Part shown: positions 12,701-15,700 of the stretch, piece by piece | Numbering within the stretch: the first letter of the stretch is position 1 | Layout: every line of letters begins with the position of its first letter | Origin: Lepisosteus oculatus | Lineage: Eukaryota > Chordata > Actinopteri > Semionotiformes > Lepisosteidae | Length of the DNA stretch: 64,000 nucleotides | Direction: 5' to 3' | NCBI RefSeq assembly: GCF_040954835.1 | Contig: NC_090716.1 | Coordinates: 13,019,275 to 13,083,274, forward strand | Translations under genes and position numbers: made by a program | Notes under the pieces: model-generated | Databases searched by the model: none | What the model was told of the DNA's origin: nothing | The model's input: only the letters and a program-made list of their open reading frames with translations

Positions 12701-15700
12701 AGAAATAAGGCAGGTCATGATTCCTGCAACTGGGTACAAGGACACTGTCAATTTTTAACCCTGCAATGGCCAATATAAGAATAGAATAGTAACATGGAGG
12801 AAATACTGTGCACTCCATGACTTTTCTGTGGATCTGTTTTCCCACTGAAAATATGGAAACTATGTTCTTTGTATACAGTGAGAATAATCCACTCTGAGCT
12901 GAAATGAATATGGTCTTTTCAGTTCTTTGAGAAGCATATTACAGATTTTACTCTTTTCAGCTTTCATCCTCATATCAAGGTATCAATCTGAGACATTGTG
13001 TATATAGTTACAAAATTTCACAAATAACAATAATAATTATTTTCAGTGGTGAAAAGTATCTGCAGGTTATGAAGTCTAAGGATAAAATGAATTTTCCTTC
13101 TATAATTCAGTTATCAAAACAATGCACAATCCCTGAAATCCAATATTTAGCCTTCAGCAAGTTTTTCTCACACTTATGATAAAGTGTAAGACACTTTATA
13201 GACCACAGTTTGTTAAGAAACTGTGAGTTGTACAGTAATGTCATAAAATTAGTTACTCATGGGCTTGAAATGTCTGTACTTCCAGTTTCTTTTAACAATC
13301 TACATAAGCTAAAACAGTAAGAAAAATTTCAATCTGTAAATACAGAAAAAGTCAAAAACAAAAGTCATGAAGCCCACTCTTACAATTATCACAACTACAA
13401 AAAGTCCAGTAATGGTTCTCAGATCGGATTTGCCTTAATGTTTGCGCTTGGCTTTGCGTCTGTCTTTCTAGAAAAGCATGCAGAACAGCCACAGGGGTTG
13501 CTTGGTTAGAAGGAGCTAGATAGCACAAAGAGAGGAGAGGGAAGGCTCAGACTCTACCTGTGTCTACACCTGGGATGCGACTGGTGTTGAACATACGCTC
13601 ATACTGGGACGAGCACATTGGAATAGTGTTTTGAACCATAAGCTGAAAAGGAAAAGTCAGAGTCAAGAAAAAAAAAAACTGAACTAAACCAGACGAACAG
13701 AATAAAGAAGGTCACCCGACAGGGTGCAGGGAGATGAGCTCAGGCTGGTGGTGAAGAGATTCCAGGAGAATGAAGACAGAGCAAGGAGCCTGCCAGAGTT
13801 TAGACACAAAGACAGGGAGGAGCAAAAATCAAATAAATTGTTTAGTGGGAGAAGGTTGCCTGCAGGTGGGAAGGGACCGCAGGGCCGGATTTTGGTGTTC
13901 GTAGGCCCTAGGCACTTTCACTCCAGAATGTGCAAATAGAGGGGTAAACGCCAATTGAATTACGTCGATTGACATGACGCACTTTAAACTATTCTAATGC
14001 TAAACCACGTGATTGATGGAGCGAATCGAGTGGCCCTCACTTCAATACTTCTAGTTTCTAGAACAGCTGCTAGATAGTGAATGATTATTGATTTGGAGCA
14101 ACTAGAGTCAATCGCAAGCATGTTGTTTCAGCTCGTTTTTCGTTAGTCACTAGTGTTTCCCTCCTTCGTAGGCCCTAAAAATTTTGTAGGCCGTAGGCAC
14201 TGTGCCTACAGTGCCTTATGGGAAAATCCGGCACTGAGGGACCGACAGAACTTCCAGAAACAAAAGGTTGGAAACAAGACAGGCCTGACAGAATGTCACC
14301 AGCTATCACACTGACGAAACCATCATGGGACTGGGATTGGGAAGTCTGAGTCTTGGAACACAAGTGCTAGTCTGACGTACTGTATGTCATAGGAGGGACT
14401 GACATTGGGAAGGTGCAGTCCTTCACTCAACACTTACAAGGGCCAGGATACACAGCAGAAAGCATGAATCACAAGCATTTCCAATCTGTTCACTATCCTG
14501 CTCTTGAAGTAATGAAACACTCAGTCAAGCATGAACCGAACAATAAGGAGAAATTAAGGGGAAATACATTTAAAGTACACTAACTGCTTCTTCCCATTCA
14601 GAATTGTTGGAGCCTGACCCAGCAAGCAACGAGCGCAAGGCAGAATACACCCTGGACGCACACCACGGGCAATTCTCCCAGAAGCCAATTTACCTATGAG
14701 CACATGGAAGAACTGGGCAAACACAGGAACAACAAACTCCACACAAAAGACAGTCCAGGTACAGAACCGAACCTAGGGCCAGTCTGTTATGAACCCCTGC
14801 TCCACCACTCTGCAGTGCTGTTTTTCTTTTAGCACATAAGGCACTGGAGATAATTATGACAGCACACTCCTGACATGATATTTTAAGACAAAGTTGGGCC
14901 ATATGTCATGGTCATTAATGACTTGAGCTGTGACTACACAAAGTTCAAGACAAAGCAGCATAAGCCACATGGGAGAAAACGACTTATGAAGACAACAGCT
15001 TGTAAAGTTCAGAGGAGATCAAAAAGGACTGCGTCAGTGAAATAAAGAATTGAATATCCTAACCTGCATGTCAGAACACTGCAGCTAGTTTCAGACAGTT
15101 CTACAGGAATTTTCCCATTGGTTTTCGCTGATGAGTCTGCTGGTGACATTGTCCCAGCTGTCCAATTTCCTCTACCCGTAGACGCAGCAGTTACCCTCTT
15201 ACCTGTCTCCGGGCCGGGGATGCGAGATGTATTGAACATTCGCTCCCACTGTGACGAGCAGAGCGGTACGGTGCTGCCCAGTGCGAAAATCTGTACCACA
15301 AGCACACACCATGTCCCGGCAAAAACATACCGTTGCATTTTACATGCAGGGTGTGACAGAGCGGACAGTAACAGTGCAAATGAAAAGAAAAGAACAACAC
15401 AGAAACAGAAGAAAAGGCTGTTAAATGTGTTCAGAAGAGCTTCCACATTGCTGCAGGAGTTATAAACATAGCTGTTGTCAAGTAAATGGGGCAAGTCAGG
15501 TAAGATGGTCTCTTTTCAGTTTCTAAACTTTCATCGATACCTTTAAATTTCAAAGAATTATAGCTCTGAACAGGCAGGGAATTCTGATCAATTATATGAC
15601 GGATTGCCACCACACCATGAATCTCAGGGACACATGCTGAGGTTTCAGAGCACTTCAACACATTGCATCTTAAAAGAAACAGGTTAGCGCTATGCATTAT

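Follow-up and report, generated by a model that had tools for sequence, protein, structure and literature searches.

The stretch of DNA analysed here (the window, 64,000 nucleotides of contig C21) belongs to a gar genome with 813 contigs (1.2 billion bases), the single species covered by the analysis. A complete CPT1 coding region, which we name cpt1a for reasons given below, is located on the minus strand of the window. The gene was modelled by a tblastn search with human CPT1A as query and by subsequent assignment of splice sites, and every modelled intron shows GT/AG borders. Between exon 8 and exon 10 two exons occur, 9A and 9B, both with AG/GT borders and equal phases. The first-pass annotation had described two exons with consensus splice sites entering in phase 0 and leaving in phase 1, and its coordinates, the AG/GT borders and the flanking exon ends at 16869 and 9701 were recovered in our model (Table 1). 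On the opposite strand, 5.4 kb before the ATG of cpt1a, we also noticed a stretch (29233-29257, plus strand) in which ATGGAAGCAGCACACCAGGCAGTAG is followed by GTGAC and which reads MEAAHQAV before a donor-like GT, resembling the CPT1 start MAEAHQAV.

Table 1. Features of the gar CPT1 genes discussed in the text. Positions refer to the window unless contig C7 is given.
Feature	Position	Strand	Description
cpt1a coding part, exons 2-19	715..23876	-	ATG at 23876, stop ends at 715
Exon 8	16869..16976	-	common upstream exon, 108 nt, end phase 0
TGCATG upstream of 9A	15343..15348	-	possible RBFOX site, 58 nt upstream of 9A; candidate 9A repressor
Exon 9A	15203..15290	-	88 nt, phase 0 in / 1 out; 29 residues + first base of next codon
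Intron separating 9A from 9B	13643..15202	-	1560 nt; frame lost if 9A is joined to 9B
Exon 9B	13558..13642	-	85 nt, phase 0 in / 1 out; 28 residues + first base of next codon
TGCATG downstream of 9B	13477..13482	-	possible RBFOX site, 75 nt downstream of 9B donor; candidate 9B enhancer
Exon 10	9506..9701	-	common downstream exon, 196 nt, start phase 1
cpt1c-like A-type exon	C7:712351-712438		88 nt, GT/AG, phase 0/1; 29 residues + G
cpt1c-like B-type exon	C7:715082-715166		85 nt, GT/AG, phase 0/1; WLIRDSVPCCSYQCERMFNSCRCPGELT + G
cpt1b single exon at the same place	C7:14147249-14147333		85 nt, B-type; 28 residues + G

The reading frame of cpt1a is kept if exactly one of the two exons is used, leading to a product of 773 amino acids with 9A and of 772 amino acids with 9B. 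If both exons are included translation stops early at codon 338, and if neither is included it stops at codon 300. This frame logic fits mutual exclusion, and thus agrees with the earlier proposal of two alternative exons for one segment. Both isoforms match the Pfam families PF16484 (CPT_N) and PF00755 (choline/carnitine acyltransferase), the latter with 661.0 bits for isoform B vs 658.9 bits for isoform A. The segment encoded by exon 9 comprises residues 295-323 of the cpt1a product. It had been placed between the N-terminal regulatory region and the catalytic core, a position that has to be corrected: because PF00755 starts at residue 175 (and spans 175-756), the segment lies inside the acyltransferase domain.

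To describe the relation between the two exons we compared 28 aligned codons, of which 9 are identical, 9 differ synonymously and 10 nonsynonymously; one extra codon is present in 9A. In the 14 codons from TGC to ATC the count reported before is exact, with 8 identical codons, 5 synonymous differences and 1 nonsynonymous difference (Trp/Tyr). The 31 nucleotide differences between the exons are distributed as 8, 6 and 17 over the first, second and third codon position, and the NG86 estimates are 0.33 for dN and 2.14 for dS. One of the synonymous differences is a serine (TCT/AGT) in which all three bases have changed. If the 31 differences are placed at random (5000 trials), a mean of 10.1 codons keep their amino acid compared to the 18 observed, and none of the 5000 simulations reached as many. 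This coding-type constraint, together with the synonymous divergence, supports the earlier view of an old duplication with purifying selection on both copies. A search of the 64-kb window with the 9A peptide finds 9B at an E-value of about 1e-10 and the next place at 0.046, so that chance similarity was discarded and no third exon copy stands out in the window. A young duplication that would be visible by intronic homology was likewise discarded, as no likeness extends beyond the exon core within 800 nt of flanking intron; a perfect match of 40 nt turned up in the flanks because the two compared stretches physically overlap.

The search for further CPT1 loci was done with exons 8-10 and exons 12-16 of the window gene as queries. 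At least three loci occur in the genome: the window gene, one at C7:0.70-0.72 Mb and one at C7:14.14-14.16 Mb. Among the weaker relatives, three were read by sequence as CPT2 (C9), ChAT (C4) and CRAT (C27). Two further matches to the CPT1 catalytic part (C12:36489733 and C12:36499460; 27-28% identity) lie 10 kb apart in open frames of about 1290 amino acids.

By its locus the window gene is cpt1a: it adjoins CARS1-like exons (query: human CARS1), and one of the two genomic places with a TESMIN/LIN54-type domain is found on the same contig at a distance of about 1.2 Mb. The CARS1 and TESMIN loci lie on human chromosome 11, as does CPT1A. The CARS1-like cysteinyl-tRNA synthetase exons (again from the human query) extend over 34783-54901 of the window on the plus strand, with transcription away from cpt1a. 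By sequence the assignment is less clear. The window gene has the highest identity of the three to human CPT1A (74.7%) and the C7:0.7 Mb gene reaches 71.7%; in a five-row tree with exon 9 left out it is the C7:0.7 Mb gene that joins human CPT1A, with a support of 75.

The C7:14.1 Mb gene was assigned as cpt1b because choline kinase exons are located about 20 kb off. The corresponding Choline_kinase places (C7:14115614-14121613) lie about 20 kb before its ATG; several clusters of this kind exist in the genome. In the gene-family paper the choline kinase gene is a neighbour of cpt1b (PMC4589379). Exon 17 of this gene (C7:14153035-14153148) would be 114 nt long, the same length as in cpt1a, provided that the intron behind it begins with GC (GCAAGT); the automatic model is 12 nt longer and extends to a GT.

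The C7:0.7 Mb gene is named cpt1c-like, by elimination. AP2A1 was not found near it: none of the six Alpha_adaptinC2 places in the genome is on C7, and an AP2A1 query gave no match within about 100 kb of the gene. Exceptions to the AP2A1-cpt1c neighbourhood are mentioned for zebrafish Cpt1ca and C. milii Cpt1c in PMC4589379. The open reading frames flanking the gene show no synteny, and some appear TRIM-like by eye. Such TRIM-like frames (RING and PRY-SPRY by eye) are located at about C7:736136-740028 amid long tandem repeats.

A matching exon pair is present in the cpt1c-like gene. As in cpt1a, an exon of 88 nt is followed by one of 85 nt between exons 8 and 10, with equal order, lengths and phases. 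In cpt1b a single exon of the B type occupies this place. One codon is present in the two fish A types and missing from the three fish B types, and in the human sequences the segment has 29 residues in CPT1A and 28 in CPT1B. In terms of residues 24 out of 29 are alike between 9A of cpt1a and human CPT1A, and 18 out of 28 are identical between 9B of cpt1a and the fish cpt1b exon. Since the matching pair occurs in a paralogue, chance or a decaying duplicate becomes unlikely as the origin of 9A and 9B. In the cpt1c-like gene the B-type exon is unusually cysteine-rich (PCCSYQCERMFNSCRCPG), yet it has an open frame and GT/AG borders. The position of the Trp/Tyr difference is Cys in both cpt1c-like exons, and Tyr in the CRAT, ChAT and CPT2 genes of this genome. 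In an alignment to CRAT structures a one-residue gap stands against 9A, before PLC. Because of this gap and of the Tyr in CRAT, ChAT and CPT2, the B form would seem nearer to the ancestral state. A relic of an A exon in cpt1b introns 8 and 9 was sought and discarded, the best of the 20 best matches having an E-value of 0.13. A stretch of cpt1b intron 8 that is similar to both exons was also rejected, as it has stops on both sides.

With respect to the age of the pair, synonymous differences make up 9 of 18 codons with the same amino acid between 9A and 9B of cpt1a, and 6 of 13 in the cpt1c-like pair. The constitutive exons of equal length give 190 of 395 for cpt1a and cpt1c-like, 175 of 362 for cpt1a and cpt1b, and 187 of 336 for cpt1c-like and cpt1b. 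By this measure the two exons of the pair have diverged roughly as far as the paralogues have; near saturation this value represents a rough lower bound and gives no date. As the synonymous divergence of 9A and 9B is similar to that of the paralogues, the pair probably predates the split of the vertebrate CPT1 genes, and the trees of the short segment agree weakly.

The strength of the splice sites was rated with a weight matrix that we derived from the constitutive exons of the three CPT1 genes (47 donors, 45 acceptors). It excludes exon 9 and also omits cpt1c-like exon 19 and cpt1b exons 17 and 19. The 9B donor ranks at 0 of 47 in cpt1a as well as in the cpt1c-like gene, below all constitutive CPT1 donors tested, and the 9A donor at 45 of 47 in cpt1a and 10 of 47 in the cpt1c-like gene. 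For the acceptors the ranks are 9 of 45 (cpt1a) and 0 of 45 (cpt1c-like) for 9A, and 14 of 45 and 9 of 45 for 9B. The unpaired cpt1b exon has a donor of rank 21 of 47 and an acceptor of rank 1 of 45; a weak acceptor is therefore no particular mark of the paired exons. With 1560 nt, the intron that separates 9A from 9B would be too long for a block by closeness of the two exons. A loss of double products would have a simple explanation, because the frame breaks when 9A and 9B are joined.

Starting from what could be established directly, namely the gene models, the phases and frame logic, a paralogue pair of equal lengths and order, the weak 9B donors and the coding constraint, we regard it as probable that 9A and 9B are mutually exclusive and give rise to two full-length CPT1A forms, and that the pair goes back to one duplication before the vertebrate CPT1 genes separated. 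We infer the use of both exons in mRNA. Exon 8 would be followed by 9A in some transcripts and by 9B in others, with exon 10 next in each case, leading to two CPT1A enzymes that would differ solely in a part of 29 or 28 residues of the acyltransferase domain. Transcripts with both exons or with neither would meet an early stop and would be subject to nonsense-mediated decay. After the duplication cpt1a and the cpt1c-like gene would have kept both exons, and cpt1b the B type alone. Tetrapod CPT1A, judged from the human gene, presumably has the A-type exon alone. A choice between the exons by tissue and a difference in kinetics between the two enzymes would be expected.

The weak donor of 9B, below all 47 constitutive donors tested, might be taken as the mark of a relic whose splicing has been lost. 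The open frame, the AG/GT sites and a coding-type constraint that persists after synonymous saturation are hard to reconcile with this, as is the matching pair in a second gene, and we consider such a loss highly improbable. Nearly as improbable is a role of 9B as a poison exon, in which its inclusion beside 9A would halt translation and lower the output of CPT1A, and in which isoform B would hardly matter. The stop at codon 338 in a transcript with both exons would suit such a switch, lying inside 9B and upstream of many junctions, but a poison exon needs neither an open frame of its own with amino-acid constraint nor an intact isoform B, and the B-type exon is the sole one in cpt1b.

More weight has to be given to independent duplications of the exon in cpt1a and the cpt1c-like gene, with one hot spot yielding a new alternative exon each time, as could also have occurred in insects, even if we consider this unlikely. 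In trees of exon 9 constrained to either topology, groups of A and B exons across genes had an advantage of 4.7 to 10.3 log units over duplication per gene in all four runs. Duplication per gene was rejected by the AU test in one of the four runs and not in the other three (p 0.116, 0.037, 0.108 and 0.103); the rejecting run includes human rows, and the one-codon gap is not counted in the likelihoods. When the rows came from fish and outgroups alone (two runs), the free best tree paired the two cpt1c-like exons. With human rows included (two runs), the B exons form one group and the cpt1c-like 9A joins human CPT1A. The odds of a common old origin are slightly lowered by the free trees of fish rows, which lend it no support. 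Likeness within a gene points in the same direction: 17 of the last 21 residues agree between 9A and 9B of cpt1a, and the cysteine mentioned above is common to both cpt1c-like exons. However, 9B of cpt1a and the cpt1b exon also agree in 17 of these 21 residues, and the cpt1c-like 9A is closer to human CPT1A (20 of 29) than any B row. Two separate events would further have to produce the same lengths (88 and 85 nt), order and phases in both genes, and a weak donor in both 9B exons. The common core within a gene could be explained by gene conversion as well as by separate duplication. We therefore retain a single duplication, before the split of the vertebrate CPT1 genes, as the preferred origin of the pair.

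A further hint towards the regulation of the mutually exclusive exons arises from the hexamer TGCATG, which we take to be the RBFOX motif. An RBFOX site upstream of an exon usually represses it and a site downstream favors it, in brain, heart and muscle. In cpt1a one copy lies before 9A and one behind 9B (Table 1), and none between the two exons. Of the 61667 places to which this spacing was shifted along the minus strand of the window, 62 had TGCATG on either side at a distance of at most 100 nt. RBFOX perhaps favors 9B over 9A in brain, heart and muscle. As the motif was noticed after the fact and is missing in the three cpt1c-like introns, it should be regarded as a lead only.

CPT1, the gate of fat oxidation, is controlled by malonyl-CoA. 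If splicing can change a part of its acyltransferase domain, this would provide a level of regulation in addition to that given by separate CPT1 genes. Since the pair occurs in two paralogues and the third has one type, the splicing choice may be connected with the way in which CPT1A and CPT1B later divided their work. A swap of 9A and 9B in one enzyme would provide a small direct test of the residues that set malonyl-CoA sensitivity and carnitine affinity.

Among the open-licence PMC papers listed, judged by their titles and the beginnings of their abstracts, we recognised none that describes such an exon pair in a vertebrate CPT1 gene. Neither “splic” nor “exon” occurs in the vertebrate CPT1 gene-family paper (PMC4589379), nor does “splic” in the passages searched of a 2026 paper on fish cpt1b (PMC13025966). 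Six motif strings had no match in paper texts. Public gene annotations may well list such vertebrate CPT1 transcripts. Animal CPT1 contaminants were also sought in the prokaryote and viral collections and dismissed, as none of the 54, 57 and 256 pattern matches was a relative.

Mutually exclusive exons that arose by tandem duplication, and of which one is used, are found in the vertebrate genes FGFR2, PKM and TPM1. Like 9A and 9B these exons are adjacent homologues whose frame is lost if both or neither are used; they concern other genes and other segments than those of cpt1a. A closer parallel is offered by insects. Price et al. are said to have described in 2010 an alternative exon pair in the CPT1 gene of insects (Drosophila withered), in what would be the corresponding part of the enzyme, and to our knowledge every insect CPT1 gene has alternative exons at this region of roughly 21 residues. 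As in gar cpt1a a CPT1 gene has two alternative exons. Insects have a single CPT1 gene, whereas here there are several, with the pair in at least two and the B-type exon alone in one. According to a review (PMC7767417), fly CPT1 occurs in two isoforms that arise by alternative splicing and differ in kinetics and tissue.

It is conceivable, if rather doubtful, that the choice between the exons predates the vertebrates and is the one also seen in the insect pair. The ancestral animal CPT1 would then have made two enzymes by splicing, and the paralogues would have parted this choice after the vertebrate genome duplications, tetrapod CPT1A keeping A, CPT1B keeping B, and gar retaining both exons in cpt1a as well as in the cpt1c-like gene. 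If this were true, part of the classic difference in malonyl-CoA control between liver and muscle would be an inherited exon choice that became fixed in separate genes. In vertebrate CPT1A and CPT1B, which are separate genes (PMC4589379), the segment exists in two versions, an A type of 29 and a B type of 28 residues, each in a gene of its own. Unlike these separate genes, gar cpt1a holds both versions of the segment in one gene.
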